Part shown: piece by piece, positions 4,648-49,595 of the stretch
How positions within the stretch are numbered: the stretch's first letter is position 1
Layout: each line of letters begins with the position of its first letter
The notes under the pieces: model-generated
Database searches by the model: none
Told to the model about the DNA's origin: nothing
What the model saw: the letters and a program-made list of their open reading frames with translations, nothing else
Position numbers and translations under genes: made by a program
NCBI GenBank assembly: GCA_025163595.1
Contig: CP104100.1
Span: 1,984,001 to 2,048,000, forward strand
From: Phaeobacter sp. G2
GTDB lineage: Bacteria > Pseudomonadota > Alphaproteobacteria > Rhodobacterales > Rhodobacteraceae
Direction of reading: 5' to 3'
DNA: 64,000 bases

Positions 4648-5619
4648 TTAGGGAAACGCGGGGAAATGCTTGCGGCGACAGGCCGCCAGGTTCAGATCCC
4701 GGATCCGCAGCAGACCCTCTGCCTCCAGCCGCGCCCGTAGCGCGGGGCTATCGTTGCAGATCTCGTCATAGAATGCGCGCAAACCGGCCTCACCCTCTTC
4801 GGCTTCGATCATGGTCATCAAGTCATGTTTGGACAGGCCACCGCGATCAAGGGGGCGCGCCGGGGACAGCCCGGCGCGGTAGGAGCCTTGCGAGAGGCGG
4901 AACCGGTAGTGGGCGAGCCAATGTTGCCAATCCGGTGCATGGAGGTGGCACAGGTCAACCTCTGGCAGCTCCTGCGCGCCGGGATTTTCAATATCCTTGC
5001 CCGCCGCCGGGTCTTTTTGAAAAACATTGTGAATGCGCAGAGAAATATTGGCCATCCCGGTGCGTACAAAGATTTTGCCCTGAACATGGCTGAGAAATCC
5101 GCCCTTCAGATGCTCGCCATACCTCGGGTAGATGCGGCCAACCGTGCCGCCTTGCTCCGGGCCGCTGGGAATGTGGCCTTTAAAGGCGGTGCCGTCACCT
5201 GCCAGCGCCTCGATGGGGCGGGCACGGGCGCAGAGCGTGGTGGCTGGCAGGGCGTTCAGGATCTCACCGATAGGCCTGTCCGCCCAGAGGAATTCGTCGA
5301 CGTCAATATGGGCGAGCCAGTCCAGATCCCCGGCCTGACGCCGATAGGCGCGGGTGGCATTCAGGCTTTGCCGCGCCTGATGTTTTTCCGGCCTGCCGGT
5401 TTTTTTGCGCCGTTGCCACCAGGAGGCATCATCGCAATCAAACACCCGGATCTTTGGATGGGCTTTCAGCAGCGCACGGGCCTCGGGGCAGGGGCTGTCC
5501 AGGTAGATGAACAGCCGGTGCGCCCCGATCTCAAGGTGGTAGGCAGCAAAGGTCAGGATATCTTCGGCGGGGGCCTTGATGGTGCTGACAAGGCCCCATT
5601 TTTCGGTTGGCGTCATCAT
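4648..5619 (-). CDS. Glycosyltransferase family 2-like protein (PF13704 type)
   Basis: 323 residues. It begins with MMTPTEKWGLVSTIKAPAED, then IGAHRLFIYLDSPCPEA, and carries the acidic metal-binding segment LAHIDVDEFLW, the DxD-like signature of this group. These proteins are annotated as glycosyltransferase family 2 and are often linked to surface glycans; donor and acceptor are not known. The start ATG overlaps the stop of the upstream gene (TGATG), so translation is probably coupled. It resembles the GT2 genes at 39472, 41257 and 44257 in this window, although it stands far from them. A longer reading frame to 5745 runs back into the upstream gene and is unlikely. Confidence 0.85.
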   Translation of the reverse strand: MMTPTEKWGLVSTIKAPAEDILTFAAYHLEIGAHRLFIYLDSPCPEARALLKAHPKIRVFDCDDASWWQRRKKTGRPEKHQARQSLNATRAYRRQAGDLDWLAHIDVDEFLWADRPIGEILNALPATTLCARARPIEALAGDGTAFKGHIPSGPEQGGTVGRIYPRYGEHLKGGFLSHVQGKIFVRTGMANISLRIHNVFQKDPAAGKDIENPGAQELPEVDLCHLHAPDWQHWLAHYRFRLSQGSYRAGLSPARPLDRGGLSKHDLMTMIEAEEGEAGLRAFYDEICNDSPALRARLEAEGLLRIRDLNLAACRRKHFPAFP

Positions 5620-6359
5620 CAGGAGGCGCGACGATTTTTGTAGCGTTGAATGCGGGCAAAGACCGTGCGGGGCTCCCGTACGAGATCGCCAAGCATCCGC
5701 TGGCAGAGCGGGGCGATGACCTGGTCGTTCACTCCATGCCGCCACAGGCGGGCCAAAATATTCTTGTCCATATCACCGCGGCGCAGGGAATAGCCCTCGA
5801 GGTCAAAGGCAAGATCGTCCTTCGACCGACCTTTGATACGAGGAAACCCCGAGCTATTGAGACGACCTGACAGGCGGCGTTCACTATCGTGAAGCTTGAT
5901 GAGGTCAAAGAGTAGCGCCAGCCCCTGTCCCCCTAGACGTTGGTCAGTAGTAGCCCCATGGTCGGCAAAGGTTGTGGCGGCAGAGATCAGCCAGCGGGGG
6001 GCCAGTTCCTTCGCCAGTTTCGCCCCATCTTCGCTCCAGAGGCGTAGAAAAAGCTGGCGGGCGAGTTCTGAAGTCGGACGGCGCCGCAGGATTGCAATCA
6101 AAAAGGCATGCAGGGCAAAGATCTCGGATTGACCGCGCATTTCATACCGCAATTGCTGCAGTTTGTGCTCTGGGTCATACTGGGTGGTCACGTCCGGGTC
6201 TGCGATGTCTTCCGGGATGGTCTGGCGCCAAAGGGAGGCAAATTCCACATCAGCCTTTGGAAGGGATTGTTCAGGTCGCAGAAACGGGTGCTCCCTTTTC
6301 TCAAGCCGTTTCATCAGGCTAAAGAACCCTCCGGGATACAACTCGCTGTCAAATTCCAT
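5619..6359 (-). CDS. Conserved hypothetical protein, partner of the GT2 gene
   Basis: 246 residues, soluble, charged and rich in Arg and Leu, beginning MEFDSELYPGGFFSLMKRLE. I do not recognise the family. No signal peptide or membrane segment is visible, and no catalytic motif stands out. It precedes and overlaps the glycosyltransferase gene by one base pair at the stop/start, so the two are expected to be one transcript and possibly one pathway. Another glycan-modifying or regulatory role would be speculation. Confidence 0.75.
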   Translation of the reverse strand: MEFDSELYPGGFFSLMKRLEKREHPFLRPEQSLPKADVEFASLWRQTIPEDIADPDVTTQYDPEHKLQQLRYEMRGQSEIFALHAFLIAILRRRPTSELARQLFLRLWSEDGAKLAKELAPRWLISAATTFADHGATTDQRLGGQGLALLFDLIKLHDSERRLSGRLNSSGFPRIKGRSKDDLAFDLEGYSLRRGDMDKNILARLWRHGVNDQVIAPLCQRMLGDLVREPRTVFARIQRYKNRRAS

Positions 6360-37140: not shown

Positions 37141-38181
37141 TCAAGCAACGGACCAATAGACCGGGAAGCCGGGGTCAAAAACTGTGACGGGGCCGTCATC
37201 GCTGTTGATCTTGGCCGGGAATTGGGTTGCAGCCTCAGACTTTACGAGCGTTATCTGACCTGTGTTTTCCGGCAGCTGGTAGAAGGCGGGGCCGTTTTTG
37301 CTGGCAAAGGCTTCCAGGCTGCCCAATGCACCCTCTTCTTCAAATACATGGGCGAGCAGCGCCATGGTGTTGGTGGCGGTGAAACAGCCGGCACAGCCGC
37401 AGCCGCTTTCTTTGTTTGGGTCGGTGTGGGGCGCAGAATCGGTGCCAAGGAAAAACCGGGCGTCGCCAGAGGTGGCGGCGGCGCGCAGCGCCAGGCGGTG
37501 TTCTTCGCGTTTGGCCACCGGCAGGCAGTAGTAATGGGGCTTGATGCCGCCAACCAGAATATGGTTGCGGTTGATGATCAGGTGATGGGTTGTGATGGTC
37601 GCACCCAGATCCTGAGGCGCGGATTTGACATAGTCCACGCCGTTGGCGGTGGTGATATGCTCCATCACCACTTTGAGCCCGGGGGTGGCTTCGCGGATTG
37701 GGTCCAGCACCCGGTCGATAAAGACGGCCTCGCGGTCAAAGATGTCGATATCCGCATCGGTGACTTCGCCATGCACACAGAGCGGCAGGCCGATTTCGGC
37801 CATTTTTTCCAGCACCGGGCGGACCTTGTCAAAATTGCTGACGCCGCTGCTGGAATTGGTGGTGGCCCCCGCCGGGTAGAGTTTGACGGCGGTGATCAGA
37901 CCCGAGGCATGGGCTGCTGCGACATCTGCCGGATCGGTGTCTTCGGTCAGGTAGAGCGTCATCAGCGGGGCAAAATCCATCCCTGCAGGCAGGGCGGCCA
38001 GAATGCGGTCGCGGTAGGCTGCTGCCTGTGAGCCGGTCACCACTGGGGGAACCAGATTTGGCATGATGATGGCGCGGCCAAAGTCGCGGGCCGTTTCGGG
38101 CAGGACGGCCTTGAGCATTGCGCCATCGCGCAGGTGCAGATGCCAGTCATCGGGGCGGGTCAGGGTGAGGGTCTCTGTCAT
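37141..38181 (-). CDS. pyrC: Dihydroorotase (type II)
   Basis: 346 residues. Converts carbamoyl aspartate to dihydroorotate, in the pyrimidine pathway. The zinc ligands HLHLRDG are at residues 14-20, the carboxylated Lys is in [17 protein letters not shown], and LGTDSAPH carries the catalytic Asp. The length fits the E. coli-type class II enzymes. It precedes pyrE in the same direction. Confidence 0.96.
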
Positions 38182-38319: not shown

Positions 38320-39282
38320 CTACAGGGTTGAGGGCAGTTCGAATTCGCCTTCGGCGGCGCGTTGTTCCAGGTCTAGCAACCGGCGGCGAAAGCGCGGGGC
38401 GCGGGCGCGGGACAACACGTTGCGACACAAAAGAACCTGCAGGAACGGCCGGTCTTGCTGCTCCAGGCGTGCCATCAGGGCGCGCAGGTAGGAAGAATCG
38501 TCGCGTCTGGCCCGGAACAGCTGGGCGAACGCGTTCTCATTGAAGTCACCCTCGGCGGCTTGTTTCAGGATGGTATTGAGAATTCTCATTTCGATCATGC
38601 GGGTCTGGACGGCGGCGCCGAGGTTGGGCACCCGCAGGCGCGATACGTTTTTACGGCTGAACAGCGCCGCATGCATAGCGTCGAGCTGCTCGTAAGGGTC
38701 GTAAAAGATAAAGGCCTGTTTGGCGGCGTCGAGCATGTCGGGGGCATAGCCAAACCGGTCAGTAAAGGAGACCCGGCGCATTTCCACAAAGCGCTCATCC
38801 CATTCTGTCATTCGCGCATCTAACGTGGCCTGGGGCTGGATGGCCACCACGGTGGCACCAGGTGCGGACACGGAAAAGGCGGAGGCTGCATAGCCACAGG
38901 GGCCTGCGCCATAAAAGATCACAGTGTCAAATTCATCAAAGAAACCATCGTCGATCAGCTGATCAAAAAAGCCATAGACGCGTTCGTTGCGAAACCAAGT
39001 GTCGCCATTGGAGAGCAGGCCCAGATGCGACCAGCCTTCGCTTTTGACCATGTCAAAACCAAGCGGCTGCGCCAGTTTGGAAAGGTTGTGAATGCCCTGC
39101 ATCGTTTCAAAGGTGACCAGCAGCGTATTGCCCTGGTCCAGGAAGGTGGCGCAGTGTTTGGGACCCAGTGGCTGGAACATGCCAAGCTCTTCGGTGATGG
39201 CGGCAAGGCGCTGCTCCCATTGGGCATGTTTTAGACCGGACAGGTCTTCGTCCAAAATCTCAAGAGTCTCTTGCATCGCCAA
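38320..39282 (-). CDS. Conserved roseobacter protein, often mislabelled PAPS reductase
   Basis: 320 residues. Recognised as a Rhodobacteraceae protein that databases often call phosphoadenosine phosphosulfate reductase; no motif of that enzyme (such as the CCxxRK and CxxC cysteines) is present. It has LPF-type strands with TVIFYGAGPCGYAASAFSV and VVAIQPQATLDARMTEWDERF, and FIFYDPYEQLDAMHAALF, an alpha/beta layout with a G-x-G turn that suggests a hydrolase-like or Rossmann-like fold. It sits downstream of the GT2/sulfotransferase cluster in the same direction, 189 bp away. Function unknown. Confidence 0.72.
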   Translation of the reverse strand: MAMQETLEILDEDLSGLKHAQWEQRLAAITEELGMFQPLGPKHCATFLDQGNTLLVTFETMQGIHNLSKLAQPLGFDMVKSEGWSHLGLLSNGDTWFRNERVYGFFDQLIDDGFFDEFDTVIFYGAGPCGYAASAFSVSAPGATVVAIQPQATLDARMTEWDERFVEMRRVSFTDRFGYAPDMLDAAKQAFIFYDPYEQLDAMHAALFSRKNVSRLRVPNLGAAVQTRMIEMRILNTILKQAAEGDFNENAFAQLFRARRDDSSYLRALMARLEQQDRPFLQVLLCRNVLSRARAPRFRRRLLDLEQRAAEGEFELPSTL

Positions 39283-39471
39283 ACATCCCTTACACAGACC
39301 GGTACAGCGGTCGATAGGGCTAAGATTTAGTCAAGAAATGCGGCCAAAGTTAGAAAAACTCTGGTCGCTTTGCTGGCCCTTCTGCTGGGGATTGCTTCAA
39401 ACGGTAGCCAGAGGGTGTTGCCTGCGACGGCAAACCGCTTCAGAAGGTCCGCTGCAAAAGACCCGCTGCGA

Positions 39472-40560
39472 TTATGTGTCGGTGTCTGGTTTTTGCGGCG
39501 TCTTGGTGGCTACCTTTTGAGCGGCCCGGCCCAGGTTGGCAAAGGTGGTCAGCGTCTGGGCGGTGACTGCATTGATGGGGCGTGATTGCGGCGTCATCAG
39601 CAGGCGGGAAAACAGCGCCCGATAGGGTTCAAGCTGCATCAGGTCGCGGAATCTCTGATGTCGCCAAGCTACTGACTTGGCGCGTATCTTCGATAGTTTG
39701 GTATCTTCCAACAGCTTGGAAACCATGTCGCGGCGTGCTGGGGCGTAGCGATCAACTGTGTCATCATTGTCCGTGTTGAAATTGCGCTCGACCCAGTAAT
39801 CTGTACCCAGCATATGGTCTGAATGCACTGCCCGGCCGCGATCCGCTTTTAGAATGTAGCTTTCCATCGCACCCAGCGGATAATGGTTGAGCTGCGCCAG
39901 GTCATAATTCTTGCGGCCATAGTTGGAAAACAGCCGCCGGGTTTTAAAGGCCTCTCCCAGCTCCCGACCGGTGCAGTCAAACCAGCGAAACTCTCCGAGC
40001 TTTTCCGGGTTTTTGACATCGCGGGGGCGGTGGACGCCGGTTTTGCGATAGGTGCCGTTGTTGCGATAGAGCGTTTTGAACATCGAGGCACGCCAGGGCC
40101 AGTGAATGACCTCTGGGGCGCAGCGGCGAAACAGTTCGGTCACTGGGGCGTCCTCAAAACGCAGGATGTCGGAATTGCCAAACAACCGCCAGGTCAGGGT
40201 GATCGCGTCGGCCTCTGGCAGGGCGTTGAGCAGATCCGTCAGGGTGCCGTCGCCGGTCTTGATGTTGACAAACTCATCCACGTCCAGGGCGAGGATCCAG
40301 TCGGCCTGTTTGACCAACGGGTGTTTGTCGGCCTGCTTCATCGCGGTGAACTGGATGCCGCCCTTGCCATAGGGGCCGTCGTTACGAATATGGGTAAGCT
40401 CGCCCAGATCCGAGAGCCGATCCAACATGGCATCGGTGCCATCCTGACAATCGTTTGAAAAGACTAGGAAGTCGGTAAACCCTACGGCCCGGTGATGGGC
40501 CAGCCATTCCAACAAAAAGGCCCCTTCATTACGGACCGTGAGGATTGCCAAAAAGCGCAT
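39472..40560 (-). CDS. Glycosyltransferase family 2-like protein (PF13704 type)
   Basis: 362 residues. MRFLAILTVRNEGAFLLEWLAHHRAVGFTDFLVF begins it, NDCQDGTDAMLDRL follows, and ILALDVDEF is the acidic metal-binding motif. WRLFGNSDILRF and FKTLYRNNGTYRKTGVHRP fit the same group as the GT2 at 44257. It follows the FkbM gene by three bases, in a tight operon. Substrates unknown; a role in surface polysaccharide or glycoprotein assembly is inferred from context. Confidence 0.87.
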   Translation of the reverse strand: MRFLAILTVRNEGAFLLEWLAHHRAVGFTDFLVFSNDCQDGTDAMLDRLSDLGELTHIRNDGPYGKGGIQFTAMKQADKHPLVKQADWILALDVDEFVNIKTGDGTLTDLLNALPEADAITLTWRLFGNSDILRFEDAPVTELFRRCAPEVIHWPWRASMFKTLYRNNGTYRKTGVHRPRDVKNPEKLGEFRWFDCTGRELGEAFKTRRLFSNYGRKNYDLAQLNHYPLGAMESYILKADRGRAVHSDHMLGTDYWVERNFNTDNDDTVDRYAPARRDMVSKLLEDTKLSKIRAKSVAWRHQRFRDLMQLEPYRALFSRLLMTPQSRPINAVTAQTLTTFANLGRAAQKVATKTPQKPDTDT

Positions 40561-40563
40561 GGG

Positions 40564-41253
40564 CTACCAGTCAGAGCGAAACACAGCGACTTTACCATGG
40601 GACCAGCGGGGGAAAAACACCAGACCTGCGGCATCCATGCAGCGAAAGACCTTTTGCATACCCGCCTTGCCGATCCACTGCGGGTGGGTCTCGATCACCA
40701 CGGCGCGCAGCCCGGTGAGGTCCATTTTGGGCAACAGATCTGCCTCAGCACCTTCGATGTCGCAGATCAGCACAGAGGGCTGCAGCTCTTTGATCACCGC
40801 GTTGACGTTCCGGGTCGGCACCTCGACCTTGGTGCAATCCTCGGCGTCCTCCATCGGGTCCAGCGAAGAGGCGAGGAAGTTTTTGCGGATGTAGAAGGGG
40901 GCGGTGCCGTCTTGGTCGCCCAGAACCGCATTGGTGACATGGGCGTTGGTCACGTTGTTTTCGGCGTGGACCTGGGCAATATAGGGCATCAATTGCGGGT
41001 TGGCCTCAAAGGAGTGCACCGATTTGGCTGGGGTCTTGGTGGCCACCAGCGTGGACATAAAGCCAATGCCGGCGCCCAGCTCCATTACCACATCATCGGC
41101 TTTCACCAGCTTTCTGACGGCGGTGGCCTCTTTGGCCTCATAGGCGCCTTCGCGCAGAAGGGTGCGGATGCGGGGCGGCAGAATGGCCCGGTCCAGCGGA
41201 AAGCGCATGCCCCGGCATTTCAGCATCTTTTGAACGTCGGCAGTCTCGGTCAT
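40564..41253 (-). CDS. FkbM-family methyltransferase
   Basis: 229 residues. VVMELGAGIGFMSTLVATKT is the SAM-binding glycine-rich loop, with PSVLICDIEGAEADLLPKMD the FkbM-type acidic motif. FkbM enzymes O-methylate sugars or polyketides. Lying between GT2 genes, it would methylate a sugar of the product. It is separated from both neighbours by three bases, so all are cotranscribed. The ATG at 41253 is the only reasonable start. Confidence 0.88.
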   Translation of the reverse strand: MTETADVQKMLKCRGMRFPLDRAILPPRIRTLLREGAYEAKEATAVRKLVKADDVVMELGAGIGFMSTLVATKTPAKSVHSFEANPQLMPYIAQVHAENNVTNAHVTNAVLGDQDGTAPFYIRKNFLASSLDPMEDAEDCTKVEVPTRNVNAVIKELQPSVLICDIEGAEADLLPKMDLTGLRAVVIETHPQWIGKAGMQKVFRCMDAAGLVFFPRWSHGKVAVFRSDW

Positions 41254-41256
41254 TGC

Positions 41257-43620
41257 TCAGCTCTCCACATCAAGCGCCAGCGCATAGGCGACGCGTTCGG
41301 TTGCGGTCAGTTTAAGGGTTAAGGCCTGTTGGTAAAGCTCTTCGAACTCATCCATGCCATGCAGCTCATCCGCCTTGGCCCGGTGCCAGTCCAGCCCCTT
41401 TTGGTGCCAGCTGCGCAGGGCATCATCCTGCATCAGGCGGTCGTATTCGGCCTGTAGCCGTGGCAGGTTGCGCTGGATTGTGACATCGCGGTGGTCGTTC
41501 CAGTCCATGCGGATCCAGTAGTTGATCCCAATCGAGCGATCTACATGCAGGGCGCGACCGCGCTGGCGTTTCACCAAAAAGCTCTCGGCTGAGCGCAGCG
41601 CGTAATGGTTCAGCTGGATCAGGTCATAACCGATGGATTTGCGCGAATTGCGCCAGCCATTGTCGGCGACCTCGCTGGTCATATCCTTGCCCGAGCCATT
41701 GACCCATTTCACCTTGTCGCGAAAGGTCTCTTCCAGCTTGTTTGGGCGGTGGCAGCTGATCTTTTGATAGGCGCCAATGTTTTTGAACATGGTCTTAAAG
41801 CCCCAGACCGTATGGGGCTTGGGGCAGTGTTTGGGGGCGCAGGCGTCAAACTGGGCGGTGACAAACTCATCCTTCAGCGTGACCACCTCGTTGGAGCCAA
41901 ACAGCCGCCACGTCATGGCGATGTTGCTGGCATCGGGCACCCGGTCAAACAGATCCTGTAGCGTGCCGTTGCCACAGCGCACGTTCATGAACTCATCCAC
42001 GTCGATATGGATGATCCAATCGGCATTGATGATCACCGGCTCTTTCAGTGATTGGTTCAGCGCATGTTGCTGTGGCGAGTTGCCCTTCCAGTTGTCATTG
42101 TTGCGATGTTGCAGGATGCCCATTTCTTGCAGCCGGTCCAGGATCTCGCTGGTGCCGTCCTCGCAGCCATTGGTATAGATCAGAAAGTTATCCACCCCCA
42201 TGGCCCGGTGATAGGCGATCCATTCCAAAATATAGGGCGCTTCGTTTTTCATGCAGCCAACGATGACATTGCCAGTGCTGCCGCTTGGCAATTCACGCGG
42301 GGGGATCTCGCTGTAGGGGGGCTGCGGCAGGTCTTCGCCCTTTTGGCCCAGATTGTTATGGGGCTTGAACGGCGAGCCCTGAAGCGTCTCGAAGTTCTCC
42401 AGCGCCCGTGGGGTCATCACGGTCATCGCGGTGGCCGTGGGGGTTTCGCCAACAGGCGTGCTGGCCTTGGTGATGTCTTGCAGATCGCTGCCCTTGGTCT
42501 GCATTTCGTCCTTTGTGGCCTTGTTGATCCGGCGCATGAAGGTCAGCAGATATTGCGAGGCGCGAAAGCCGCGCTCAGGCGCGGCTTCCTGCCAGGGGGG
42601 CAGGGTGTCCTGTGCCGTATCAGTGGTGCCAAATCCGGCAGCTTGCAGCGCCGGGTGACGCGCGGCCAGGTCCTGATTTGCCGCTGCAAAGAACTGCGCC
42701 ACCGGCGCCAGCGTGGCGGGATCAATTGGCGCACCCTCAATGGCGATCTCATTAATAAAACTTCGCCACAATTGGCGCGGCAGGATCTTGCTGCGCTGGG
42801 CCAGAAGCCGCAACAGCAAGGCATTCAGCTGGCGGCTGCGTGCCAGCCAGGCGGCTGAGGGCTGTTGCGCCACCTTGCCAGCTGGGCTGCGGCCAATCTG
42901 CGAGGGCAGGCCAAAGGCGGCGCAGATTTCATTGGGGGCTTCGGCACCATAGACGGCAGCTTCGTCATAGGGGCGAAAGGTGAAATTACCGACGCCAAAC
43001 ATGGCCTCCCAATGGGCCTGCAGGGCGGCGTAGTCGAGCCAGAACGGCGCGCCTTGGGTTTCTTCAAACTGGCCCGCCTGCGGGTCAATCTTGGGGCAGG
43101 TCGCCAAAGCGGCCTGCCACCAGTTTTTGCTTTGGGTCAGCGCCAGTTCCTGGCTCAGCGGGCGGTCGCGCCCCTCCAGGATCTGGGCGCCATAGTGCCG
43201 GGCAAGGGCGCGGGCCGGGGTGTCGATATGGGCCACCACCTGGATGTCGTCAGACAGCGGGTCAAGCAGCGCTTTTAGCCGCATGAGTTCGCTGGGCCGA
43301 TGCAGTTTGCTGCCCAGCTGCGCCGCCGACAGGATCAGGATATCCGGCTGCGCCTGCGCCACCTCGCGGCTCAGATCCTGTTCCAGTGTCTGATACAGGC
43401 GGCTTTGCTTTTCTGCGGTGATAAAGCCGCGGTTGTAGCGCAGAGGATCGACGTGGTCGGGGTCGCTCACCGCCATATACAGGCGGGTGTGGTTTTTGTT
43501 GCCCGGGGCACGCGGGAACAAGACCCCCTTGCCGCGCAGTTGGTCGCGCTTGTCTGCCATGATCTGTTGCAACCGGTCTGCACCAGTCTGTTCTAGGCCA
43601 ATATGAAGATAAATCCGCAT
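41257..43620 (-). CDS. Fusion: sulfotransferase-like N-terminus plus GT2 C-terminus
   Basis: 787 residues. The first about 330 residues start MRIYLHIGLEQTGADRLQQI, like the sulfotransferase family, but the PAPS-binding P-loop (KSGTTxL type) has become LEQTGADRL, lacking the Lys and Ser/Thr. A disordered Thr/Pro-rich linker covers about 380-450. From 451 a GT2 domain runs with NVIVGCMKNEAPYILEW, LIYTNGCEDGTSEI, ADWIIHIDVDEFMN and KTMFKNIGAYQKISCHRP. The start ATG overlaps the stop of the sulfotransferase gene (TGATG). The upstream in-frame extension to 43662 lies in that gene and is rejected. Confidence 0.85.
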   Translation of the reverse strand: MRIYLHIGLEQTGADRLQQIMADKRDQLRGKGVLFPRAPGNKNHTRLYMAVSDPDHVDPLRYNRGFITAEKQSRLYQTLEQDLSREVAQAQPDILILSAAQLGSKLHRPSELMRLKALLDPLSDDIQVVAHIDTPARALARHYGAQILEGRDRPLSQELALTQSKNWWQAALATCPKIDPQAGQFEETQGAPFWLDYAALQAHWEAMFGVGNFTFRPYDEAAVYGAEAPNEICAAFGLPSQIGRSPAGKVAQQPSAAWLARSRQLNALLLRLLAQRSKILPRQLWRSFINEIAIEGAPIDPATLAPVAQFFAAANQDLAARHPALQAAGFGTTDTAQDTLPPWQEAAPERGFRASQYLLTFMRRINKATKDEMQTKGSDLQDITKASTPVGETPTATAMTVMTPRALENFETLQGSPFKPHNNLGQKGEDLPQPPYSEIPPRELPSGSTGNVIVGCMKNEAPYILEWIAYHRAMGVDNFLIYTNGCEDGTSEILDRLQEMGILQHRNNDNWKGNSPQQHALNQSLKEPVIINADWIIHIDVDEFMNVRCGNGTLQDLFDRVPDASNIAMTWRLFGSNEVVTLKDEFVTAQFDACAPKHCPKPHTVWGFKTMFKNIGAYQKISCHRPNKLEETFRDKVKWVNGSGKDMTSEVADNGWRNSRKSIGYDLIQLNHYALRSAESFLVKRQRGRALHVDRSIGINYWIRMDWNDHRDVTIQRNLPRLQAEYDRLMQDDALRSWHQKGLDWHRAKADELHGMDEFEELYQQALTLKLTATERVAYALALDVES

Positions 43621-44246
43621 CAGGTGTTCTGAGCCTTCCGATTGACATTGGCCTTGCCCCACCAGGGCAGTTCCCGCCCCAGATGGGCGCTGATTTTCTG
43701 TTGTGCGTCAGGGGCCGCAACATTGATCTCCAGATAGCGGGGATCGTCGCGGAACCAGTGTTGCAGCGCCTCATAGTGGCCATCAATCCACAGCATCTGC
43801 TGGTCTGCCGTCTTGCCATAGCCGATAGGCAATCCGGGAACCGTGCTGGAGGGCAGCCGGGTGGTGCCCAGATTGTTCCAGGCCATGATTGATTTTGAAT
43901 GGCTTTCGGCATCGCGCCGGGTGGCGATAAACCGGGCCTCTGGGTAGAGATCCTGCAGGGTTTTGATCAGGGCAAAATCAAACTGCGGCCAGACCGAAAA
44001 CTTGCCGTGAATAAAACTGATCTCAGAGACCGCATCATAGTCTTTCATATAGGCCATGGGGTCGCCGGTTTCATAAAGCCCTTTGTACAGCTGCGAGCCG
44101 ACAAAGACGCGGCGCTTGCCGGGGCGATCCTCTTCGCGCTCCTTCAGGCGATGGTCGGCGACGGTATAGCCCGCCTGGCTGAGCGCCTTGTTCAGGGTTG
44201 TGGTGCCGGATTTTGGCAGGCCGAGGTTGATGACTTTCAGCTCCAT
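43620..44246 (-). CDS. Sulfotransferase family protein
   Basis: 208 residues. VINLGLPKSGTTTLNKALSQ is an intact PAPS-binding P-loop (residues about 5-24). FIATRRDAESHSKSIMAWN is the 3'-phosphate binding region with the Arg and Ser. It resembles the small sulfotransferases found in roseobacter polysaccharide loci. It would transfer sulfate from PAPS to a sugar or other hydroxyl. Start MELKVINLG at 44246; it lies between two GT2 genes in the same operon. Confidence 0.87.
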   Translation of the reverse strand: MELKVINLGLPKSGTTTLNKALSQAGYTVADHRLKEREEDRPGKRRVFVGSQLYKGLYETGDPMAYMKDYDAVSEISFIHGKFSVWPQFDFALIKTLQDLYPEARFIATRRDAESHSKSIMAWNNLGTTRLPSSTVPGLPIGYGKTADQQMLWIDGHYEALQHWFRDDPRYLEINVAAPDAQQKISAHLGRELPWWGKANVNRKAQNT

Positions 44247-44256
44247 AGCGGGCGGC

Positions 44257-45315
44257 TCACTCTGTTGCACTGGGGGCAAGCCCCAGATCCTCAAGGCCGA
44301 GATCTATTAGCAGCGCCTCTTCCTGCGGTGGCAGGGTCGATGTCGCCAATAGCTGAGCGCGCATGTCCTGGTAGCTGGGCTGCGCCAGCAGCGCGTCGCG
44401 CTTTTCCAGATGGCGGGCGACGCAGGTGGCGTGCAGCGCGGCTATTTCCGGGTCGGATTTCAGCGCCTCCAGCGCCGCTGTTAGCGCGGGCAGGTAGCGT
44501 TGGATCGACAGGTCCTCAAAGGCGGGGTCGTTGCGTTCCCGCCAGTAACTGTCATCAAAGGCACGGTGCTCGCGGTTGACATCGCCCCGGTCGTTTTTGA
44601 CCAGATAGCTGTCCAGCGAGCGCAGGGCGTAGTGGTTGAGGGTGGCGAAGGCGCGGCTGCCCTTGGCCGGAAATTTACGGATGCGGCGCGGGTTATCGGC
44701 CACCAGAAATTTATGCGGCACATCGCGTCCCGCGCCATCACTCCAGCGGGGATATCTGCGCGGCGGCAGGTTCTTTTTGAAAAACGGACGATGGGCGCCG
44801 TAGTATTTCAGCGGAAAATCTTGCCGCACCAGGGTTTTCACCTCGATTGCGGTCTCGGCGCACCAGATGTCCGGGTTGTGGGAGCGGGTGAACTGGCTGA
44901 TGACCGGCGCGTCGACAAAGCCCTCAATCCCGTCATTGGCAAAAAACTGAAAGGTGATCGAGATCGCCATGGGATCTTTGCAGGCCTCGATCAGGGCCGG
45001 AATGCTATGGTCGCCAACATGGATGTTGAGAAACTCGTCCACATCCGCCACCCAGATCCAATCGGCCTCTTGCACCAGCGGCTGATGGGCGGCGTCTTTC
45101 AGCGCCTCCATCTGGTAGTTGCGCCCCTGCGCCGGGTTAGGCAAATGGGTCAGCATGTCACGCGCCGCCAATGCATCCAGCAGCTCGGCCGTGCCATCGG
45201 TGCAGTCGTTGGAATAAAATAGAAAATCCGTGACGCCAATCAGCTGGTTAAAGGCGATCCATTCCAGCAGGAAAGGGCCTTCGTTTTTGACGCAGGTCAC
45301 TGCGGTGATGCGCAT
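44257..45315 (-). CDS. Glycosyltransferase family 2-like protein (PF13704 type)
   Basis: 352 residues, first gene of the minus-strand cluster. MRITAVTCVKNEGPFLLEWI, then FYSNDCTDGTAELLD, and ADWIWVADVDEFLNI with the DVDEF metal-binding motif. VKTLVRQDFPLKYYGAHRP and NHYALRSLDSYLVKNDRGDVN match its paralogues. The ATG at 45315 has GAGAGGGG seven bases before it. The frame to 45651 is the antisense upstream region. Donor and acceptor unknown. Confidence 0.87.
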   Translation of the reverse strand: MRITAVTCVKNEGPFLLEWIAFNQLIGVTDFLFYSNDCTDGTAELLDALAARDMLTHLPNPAQGRNYQMEALKDAAHQPLVQEADWIWVADVDEFLNIHVGDHSIPALIEACKDPMAISITFQFFANDGIEGFVDAPVISQFTRSHNPDIWCAETAIEVKTLVRQDFPLKYYGAHRPFFKKNLPPRRYPRWSDGAGRDVPHKFLVADNPRRIRKFPAKGSRAFATLNHYALRSLDSYLVKNDRGDVNREHRAFDDSYWRERNDPAFEDLSIQRYLPALTAALEALKSDPEIAALHATCVARHLEKRDALLAQPSYQDMRAQLLATSTLPPQEEALLIDLGLEDLGLAPSATE

Positions 45316-45616: not shown

Positions 45617-46540
45617 ATGATACAGGCACAGTTGATACAGGCGCAGTCCATTGATCACGTCCAGCAGATGCTGACAGAACAGGGCTATGTCTGTGGTCGT
45701 CCGCTGGCGACAATTGTGTTCTTGTCGCTGAAGCTGGGCCGCCCGCTGTTTCTGGAGGGCGAGGCCGGGGTCGGGAAGACCGAAATCGCCAAGGCCCTGG
45801 CGGCGGCCTTTGGGCGGCGGTTGATCCGGCTACAGTGCTACGAAGGGCTTGATGCCTCCTCCGCCGTGTATGAATGGAACTTTGCCGCCCAGATGGTGGC
45901 CATCCGTACCGCCGAGGCCGCAGGGGGCGCAGACCGCGCCACCCTGCAGACAGAACTGTTTTCCGATGAATTCCTGGTGGAACGGCCATTGCTGGAGGCC
46001 ATGCGCCCGGATGAAAACGGCCCGCCGGTATTGCTGATTGATGAGCTGGACCGCACCGATGAACCCTTTGAGGCCTTTCTGTTGGAAGCGCTGTCGGATT
46101 TTCAGGTCACCATTCCTGAACTTGGCACCATCAAGGCGCCAGAGCCGCCCATCGTGGTGCTCACCTCCAACCGGACCCGCGAAGTGCACGACGCGCTAAA
46201 GCGGCGCTGCCTGTATCACTGGGTCGACTATCCGGATTTTGCCCGCGAGGTGGAGATCCTCAAGGCGCGCGCCCCCGAAGCCTCGGATCAGCTAAGCCGC
46301 GAGGTGGTGGCCTTTGTGCAAACATTGCGTACAGAGGATCTGTTCAAGAAACCCGGCGTGGCTGAAACCATTGACTGGGCTAACTGCCTGCTGGCGCTGG
46401 ATGTCATTGATCTGTCGCCGGAGGTGATCGCCGATACCCTGGGGGCGATCCTGAAATATCAGGACGATATCTCGCAACTGCAGGGCTCAGAAGCCAAGCG
46501 CATTCTGGATCAGGCCCGTGCCAGCCTGGATGAGGCCTGA
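45617..46540 (+). CDS. MoxR-family AAA+ ATPase, CoxD-like
   Basis: 307 residues. FLEGEAGVGKTEIAKALAAA is Walker A, VLLIDELDRTDEPFEAFLLE is Walker B, and LTSNRTREVHDALKRRC the sensor and Arg finger. CoxD helps to mature the active site of carbon-monoxide-dehydrogenase-type enzymes by inserting the metal-sulfur parts; in this locus it likely serves the coxSLM products. It is followed immediately by the VWA protein gene, its usual partner. Confidence 0.9.
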   Translation: MIQAQLIQAQSIDHVQQMLTEQGYVCGRPLATIVFLSLKLGRPLFLEGEAGVGKTEIAKALAAAFGRRLIRLQCYEGLDASSAVYEWNFAAQMVAIRTAEAAGGADRATLQTELFSDEFLVERPLLEAMRPDENGPPVLLIDELDRTDEPFEAFLLEALSDFQVTIPELGTIKAPEPPIVVLTSNRTREVHDALKRRCLYHWVDYPDFAREVEILKARAPEASDQLSREVVAFVQTLRTEDLFKKPGVAETIDWANCLLALDVIDLSPEVIADTLGAILKYQDDISQLQGSEAKRILDQARASLDEA

Positions 46541-48449: not shown

Positions 48450-49001
48450 ATGCCAATGAATTGGAAAGCGGGAGGGCTCTTGCTGGGGCTGGTGTTCTTC
48501 CTGGCGGTGCTATTGGTCAAACCGATTGGGGTCTCGACCCAGTTTGTGATCCTGGATGGGATCCTGGGCGATGTGGTCAATACTGAACTGGTGACCAAAA
48601 CGGAGGAGGGCTACACCTCAACCAATGCCTATCTGGCAAAGTCCGGCGGCAAATATGCCAAATCGGTGGCCAATCCGCTGAACTACAGCTTTGTCTTTGT
48701 ACTGGCGATGGCGCTGGGCGGTTTTACCTCCATGCGGCTGCGTGGCGGGCTCGGCGCGGTCGAGCGCTCTGTGCCGGCGCTCTGGCGGGCCAACTTTGGT
48801 GAGGGCCCGGCGCTGCGCTACGCGGCGGTGTTTCTGGGCGGGTTTATTGTGCTTTATGGGGCGCGCCTGGCAGGGGGCTGTACCTCTGGCCATATGATGT
48901 CGGGCATGATGCAGACGGCGCTGTCGGGATATATTTTTGCGGCTGGTGCCTTTGCGGCTGCCGTCCCTGTATCCCTGATTTTGTTCAAAAAGGAGGCCTG
49001 A
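48450..49001 (+). CDS. YeeE/YedE-family sulfur transport protein, first half
   Basis: 183 residues with four or five membrane helices. RLAGGCTSGHMMSGMMQ carries the conserved Cys in GGCTSGH, the sulfur-relay site in thiosulfate importers such as YeeE. The periplasmic stretch VNTELVTKTEEG fits the first half of a split transporter. AGGAGG lies seven bases before the ATG. The second half is encoded three bases after its stop. Confidence 0.9.
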   Translation: MPMNWKAGGLLLGLVFFLAVLLVKPIGVSTQFVILDGILGDVVNTELVTKTEEGYTSTNAYLAKSGGKYAKSVANPLNYSFVFVLAMALGGFTSMRLRGGLGAVERSVPALWRANFGEGPALRYAAVFLGGFIVLYGARLAGGCTSGHMMSGMMQTALSGYIFAAGAFAAAVPVSLILFKKEA

Positions 49002-49004
49002 GCC

Positions 49005-49595
49005 ATGACGTCTATTATCCTTGCACTGGTGATTGGGGCTGCCTTTGGGGCGGTGCTTGACCGGGTTGGAGCTTCCAATCCAAGCTACATTGGCAAGATG
49101 CTGAACCTGACCAATCTGAACTTGGCAAAAACGATCATGCTGGCGATCGGCACCGGATCCGTGCTGATGTTTGGCGGTCAGATGCTGGGCTTGGTGGATG
49201 TTGGTCATATGTCGGTCAAATCGGCCTATATCGGGGTCTTTATCGGTGGGCTGATGCTGGGGGCCGGCTGGGCGCTGGCAGGCTATTGTCCCGGCACCGG
49301 CGTGGTTGCAGCGGCCTCGGGGCGCAGGGACGCTTTGTTTTTTATCGCGGGTGGCCTGTTTGGCGCTGCCGCCTATATGCTGACCTACCCGAGCTGGAAA
49401 GCCAGCGGGCTGCTGGACAGCGTGGCTGGCGGTAAAGTCACCCTGGGCGCGGTTCCAGGGGCTAAATACGACGGCCTGACCGCGCTGCCTGGGGATCTGC
49501 TGGGCCTTTTGCTCGGGGCAGTCTTTATCATCCTCGCCTTTGCTCTGCCCGAGCGGATCATCGGCACGGGGCCCGTTACCCAGCCCGCAGAGTAA
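49005..49595 (+). CDS. YeeE/YedE-family sulfur transport protein, second half
   Basis: 196 residues. GWALAGYCPGTGVVAAASGRR has the second conserved Cys (YCPGTG), and FFIAGGLFGAAAYML a membrane segment. Together with the preceding gene it makes the two-part YeeE/YedE transporter type that imports thiosulfate or a related sulfur species. In this position it may feed sulfur to the Mo cofactor proteins or to general sulfur metabolism; this is inference. No terminator was found after it. Confidence 0.88.
   Translation: MTSIILALVIGAAFGAVLDRVGASNPSYIGKMLNLTNLNLAKTIMLAIGTGSVLMFGGQMLGLVDVGHMSVKSAYIGVFIGGLMLGAGWALAGYCPGTGVVAAASGRRDALFFIAGGLFGAAAYMLTYPSWKASGLLDSVAGGKVTLGAVPGAKYDGLTALPGDLLGLLLGAVFIILAFALPERIIGTGPVTQPAE

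Follow-up and report, generated by a model that had tools for sequence, protein, structure and literature searches.

A 64,000-nucleotide stretch of the Phaeobacter sp. G2 genome (contig CP104100.1, positions 1,984,001 to 2,048,000; here the window) carries on its minus strand, at 45315-39472, a block of five genes, gtA, ST, FUS, FkbM and gtB, spaced by 10 bp or less, and a sixth gene, UNK, downstream of them. The block is real and conserved and lies within a known kind of biology, and its new part is the presence together of two domains that look catalytically dead, a sulfotransferase-like domain in FUS and the hydrolase-like protein UNK. We read it as a conserved roseobacter module in which three glycosyltransferases and a sulfotransferase, with or without the FkbM methyltransferase, decorate a carrier made elsewhere while the dead domains serve in binding and assembly, and we consider the chances of this reading to be about even. 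An earlier reading made from the sequence alone (the sequence-only reading) had described five tightly packed minus-strand genes with gaps of 0-10 bp and an additional downstream gene, and all six were recovered at the same coordinates; it had overlooked the lack of a conserved 3'-phosphoadenosine-5'-phosphosulfate (PAPS) loop in FUS, the lack of a catalytic triad in UNK and the optional nature of ST and FkbM.

The conservation of the block was assessed in a survey of the family, with 248 genomes from 248 genera. Some match to FUS was found in 209 genomes, although many of the listed rows match its transferase half only. Among the matches listed, at least 64 genomes contain near-full-length FUS, in one piece in 57 (own genome included) and in two pieces in 7. 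We examined the loci of 60 of the 63 FUS-bearing genomes other than our own, leaving out G245, G078 and G058; since these loci were picked for carrying FUS, they show the gene order given FUS and not its frequency. It turned out that gtA lies directly upstream of FUS in 59 loci and gtB downstream of it in 58, while ST (51 of 60) and FkbM (33 of 60) are both optional. UNK is present in 52 loci, adjoining gtB in 51 and pyrC in 46, and a MoxR-type ATPase gene (moxR) is found in 51; some of the missing genes reflect contig ends (e.g. L058 and L075). Besides, the order moxR, gtA, ST, FUS, optional FkbM, gtB, UNK, pyrC is complete in 61 of the best 80 of 303 named relatives, including Pseudophaeobacter, Tateyamaria, Thalassovita, Tritonibacter, Ruegeria and Sulfitobacter, and two more of these 80 deviate only by a split FUS match. 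The sequence-only reading had proposed a search of other Rhodobacteraceae for the same order, and in both sets of loci the order is conserved rather than scattered.

FUS (43620-41257, minus strand, 787 aa) is a two-domain protein, and is one of the two proteins, with UNK, whose predicted structures were compared with known folds. Its N-domain (residues 1-340, 42601..43620) takes a sulfotransferase fold in the predicted structure, with no sulfotransferase match in Pfam. Unlike the heparan sulfate N- and 3-O-sulfotransferases, it has no conserved PAPS loop: positions 11-15 are variable, and no residue there exceeds 65% in 54 sequences. A FUS profile gave a single match among the PDB sequences (E 0.029), which was taken as chance. 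Residues elsewhere in the N-domain are invariant, as are residues in UNK. Selection was estimated as the ratio of nonsynonymous to synonymous substitution rates (dN/dS, Nei-Gojobori) against seven close relatives, two of the FUS comparisons covering only part of the protein. The dN of the N-domain is 0.121-0.358 (dS 0.79-2.14) and that of the C-domain 0.017-0.115; selection therefore maintains both domains, with a looser hold on the N-domain. In locus L086 (G009), the FUS matches are split over two adjacent open frames, one sulfotransferase-like and one transferase.

UNK (39276-38320, minus strand) has 318 aa counted from its ATG, and an alternative TTG start lies two codons ahead at 39282. 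Neither Pfam nor NCBIfam gives a match to it at E 0.01, and its profile has none among the PDB sequences. The predicted structure has an alpha/beta-hydrolase fold, and glycan O-acetyltransferases are among the proteins that it resembles; the triad serine and histidine are replaced by G125 and A221, and D193 is kept. Gly125 occurs in all 48 aligned UNK rows, that of the window included, and Asp193 and His202 of UNK are invariant. Among 88 members without the triad, none has serine at 125 and position 221 takes 13 different residues. The dN/dS of UNK is 0.044-0.105 (for the six of seven relatives that gave a value), compared with 0.076-0.133 for pyrC (seven), and judged from these substitution rates both UNK and the FUS N-domain are under purifying selection. 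Outside the family, a search of 289 genomes of the class returned four strong matches, all belonging to the family itself, and five further matches of 17-31 bits that cover the profile in part. Many relatives of UNK bear the database label “phosphoadenosine phosphosulfate reductase”, which neither family nor fold supports; a PAPS reductase was rejected on the same grounds, namely the empty Pfam and NCBIfam searches and the alpha/beta-hydrolase fold.

The triad is not lost from all relatives of UNK. All 30 top paralogue matches retain the serine and histidine, and a Pfam search with two paralogues reached families of alpha/beta-hydrolases, though below cut-off (E 0.0025 and 0.0072). In 25 of 30 genomes the distance between the triad-bearing paralogue and the best FUS-type match is within 5 kb; it is 12.7 kb in one, and in four the two are on different contigs. 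Flanks of 1.5 kb were too short for judging this linkage, with a transferase visible in 8 of the 30 paralogue loci. A second system is seen, in which triad-bearing paralogues stand near transferase fusions (L101, L104, L107, L111, L112, L113, L115, L116, L117, L118 and L132). By eye, the N-halves of these fusions look like degenerate transferases and not sulfotransferases, and the one sequence compared gave no alignment with the FUS N-domain.

Two known proteins help to place UNK. CsaC, the capsule O-acetyltransferase of meningococcus serogroup A, is an active enzyme belonging to a capsule locus, whereas UNK lacks the triad. Asp2/Gap2 of the streptococcal accessory Sec system differs from UNK in the same serine and histidine, the identity being 10% and UNK having no Pfam match. 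Mutation of the Asp2 catalytic site is reported to stop acetylation but to leave export intact (PMC5578698), and another paper describes acetylation as a regulator of further glycosylation (PMC7948813). Asp2 is thus a precedent for a protein of hydrolase fold that has a non-catalytic job.

The three transferases are gtA (45315-44257, 352 aa, DxD motif DVDEF), the FUS C-domain (residues 450-787, 41257..42273) and gtB (40560-39472, 362 aa), all on the minus strand. All three match PF13704 and the GT92 family PF01697 above the curated cut-offs in a Pfam profile search, in which the FUS and ST sequences were each one codon too long (gtA, E 2.6e-19 and 3.3e-10 respectively; gtB, E 3e-25 for PF13704), and by sequence comparison the DxD region is kept in each. 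In gtA, 127 of 352 positions are at least 97% identical over 50 sequences. FUS was the only transferase modelled; its predicted structure has a GT-A fold, and the top structural match of its C-domain is to GT92 galactosyltransferases (plant GalS1). GalS1 shares PF01697 with the block transferases, which differ from it in being bacterial, in having no membrane-length hydrophobic stretch and in scoring higher on PF13704. The window holds a further PF13704 glycosyltransferase gene at 4648-5745 on the minus strand (match C1:1989275-1989559, 66.4 bits), and two adjoining matches to PF13704, both strong (117 and 111 bits) and only distantly like the block transferases, lie at G000:C1:102157-103665 (L256).

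ST (44246-43620, minus strand, 208 aa) matches PF17784 above cut-off (E 6.8e-12) and carries the PAPS-loop motif LPKSGTT; over 50 sequences, conservation of PK.GTT is 97% or higher. With the family match and the 5'-phosphosulfate loop, ST is a predicted PAPS-dependent sulfotransferase. Its search of the PDB sequences gave four rows, of which three are sulfotransferases (E 0.11-0.36 for the four), and the genome has one match to APS (adenosine 5'-phosphosulfate) kinase. FkbM (41253-40564, minus strand, 229 aa) matches PF05050 and TIGR01444 above cut-off (TIGR01444, 78.1 bits, cut-off 37.7).

On this basis, gtA, the FUS C-domain and gtB would act in the cytoplasm, each probably adding one sugar to a pre-made carrier, and ST would transfer sulfate from PAPS onto the short glycan. 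FkbM would add a methyl group in about half of the block-bearing genera. The FUS N-domain, as a pseudo-sulfotransferase, and UNK, as a pseudo-acyltransferase, may serve in binding the glycan or acceptor and in assembly. We infer both the sugars of the glycan and the binding of glycan or acceptor by UNK. The carrier may be a protein, a lipid or lipopolysaccharide (LPS), and the finished conjugate would exit by a general route, our best guess being lipid A-core flipped by MsbA. The LPS core is preferred because it requires no dedicated flippase. LPS core (waa) loci likewise combine transferases with modifying enzymes and have no flippase to themselves; for the block, an action on LPS is a conjecture. 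The sequence-only reading had also seen a glycan-modifying module, and the six genes indeed include no flippase, polymerase or exporter. More tentatively, and with somewhat less than an even chance, the block might be a glycan assembly machinery of the whole family, centred on two enzymes that have given up catalysis. One would be a pseudo-sulfotransferase joined to a working transferase, the other a pseudo-acyltransferase that stands by itself and has triad-bearing paralogues near other GT92-like fusions. Their dead folds would recognise the glycan as it grows and keep the active enzymes in place, giving roseobacters a sulfated surface oligosaccharide in common.

Several observations weigh against the decorating module with its dead domains. 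Gap2, the top structural match of UNK, has a Z score that the tool counts as equal to that of MPT51, and a glycine at the nucleophile position still leaves room for other chemistry. Within FUS, the N-domain is the faster-evolving of the two domains. ST is absent from nine of the 60 loci, one at a contig edge and eight with gtA next to FUS. Near-full-length FUS (at least 64 genera among the matches listed) is much rarer than UNK, which occurs in 192 of 248 and therefore does not depend on the block; five of the 60 block genera have no UNK match (G041, G069 and G071 as listed, G106 and G229 from their absence among the matches). In G099 and G190, the transferase block is elsewhere and UNK remains next to pyrC. 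The last point favours the view that UNK is a housekeeping protein tied to pyrC and unrelated to the glycan block, which was merely inserted alongside, and so do 13 of 40 hand-chosen loci with UNK between moxR and pyrC and no query-gene match between. However, in six blocks (L060, L062, L071, L078, L082 and L083) whose fetched stretch lacks pyrC, UNK still adjoins gtB, and UNK is matched once in each of the six genomes; gtB adjoins UNK without FUS in nine of the 40 loci; and the triad-bearing paralogues keep to FUS-type genes as described above. Further loci among the 40 have gtB and UNK together with a transferase fusion of another type. We regard a housekeeping UNK as unlikely, though by no means far-fetched. 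That the FUS N-domain and UNK are active enzymes using a non-standard mechanism would agree with the invariant residues in both, Asp193 and His202 of UNK among them, and with purifying selection, but the variable PAPS loop and the 13 residues at position 221 make this very unlikely.

Other alternatives concern what is decorated. The block might supply side groups to an exopolysaccharide, capsule or holdfast from distant export loci; marine exopolysaccharides commonly carry sulfated and methylated sugars, the genome has three Poly_export sites (C1:1726747 and two on C4), and the relocated block L083 has, some 3 kb upstream of gtA, a gene that looks GT2-like by eye. Yet on the contig of the block Poly_export comes no closer than about 295 kb, the single Wzy_C match of the genome is below cut-off and located elsewhere, and the neighbours of L071, L078, L082 and L083 include urease genes by eye. 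We find this idea rather improbable, on a par with a housekeeping UNK. A nearby capsule or O-antigen locus was ruled out for these two families. The sequence-only reading had named a nearby polysaccharide export locus as evidence against itself, and none was found for Poly_export and Wzy_C, the families searched, flippases and ATP-binding cassette exporters being outside that search. Alternatively, the block could decorate a cytoplasmic protein such as flagellin, pilin or a large adhesin, as streptococcal transferases and Asp2 do with serine-rich repeat adhesins. Flagellin_N matches occur in 198 of the 248 genera surveyed and in 51 of the 60 block genera, and no association with the block is visible in these counts, which were read by eye. 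The nine block genera without a Flagellin_N match (G041, G055, G070, G072 and G076 as listed; G153, G197, G229 and G241 from their absence among the matches) are all at least 99% complete; flagellin is therefore an unlikely general acceptor and was rejected as such. In nine loci, whose flanks were read as N-termini only, no adhesin was recognised by eye, no adhesin-directed search being made. A protein acceptor seems a slightly weaker candidate than an exopolysaccharide, and we return to the decoration of a carrier made elsewhere, with the LPS core preferred.

Within the locus, the spacing from gtA to gtB is 10 bp, an overlap, 3 bp and 3 bp, followed by 195 bp before UNK; the ST stop overlaps the FUS ATG as TGATG. 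The conserved neighbours outside the system are pyrC (37141..38181, minus strand, Amidohydro_1) and the divergent MoxR-type ATPase gene (45617..46540, plus strand, AAA_5). A tRNA search at the locus found none, and no abrupt shift of base composition was seen there. A promoter scan gave 2 sites against 2.6 in shuffles, and terminator-like sites numbered 12 against 7.4, so the operon end was left unset. At 48450-49595 of the window lie two adjoining genes, by eye a YeeE/YedE-type transporter pair, which various loci have close to their block.

In the open-access literature searched, we found no description of the block, which agrees with the sequence-only reading of an undescribed system; a table in PMC3230580 names one sulfotransferase. 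The results correct a database name borne by many Rhodobacteraceae proteins, and the triad-bearing paralogue and the triad-less UNK form a clean pair for studying enzyme folds after catalysis is lost. If our reading is true, an unstudied conserved block would account for a sulfated glycan that many marine bacteria have in common on their surface, with a bearing on algal attachment and phage receptors.
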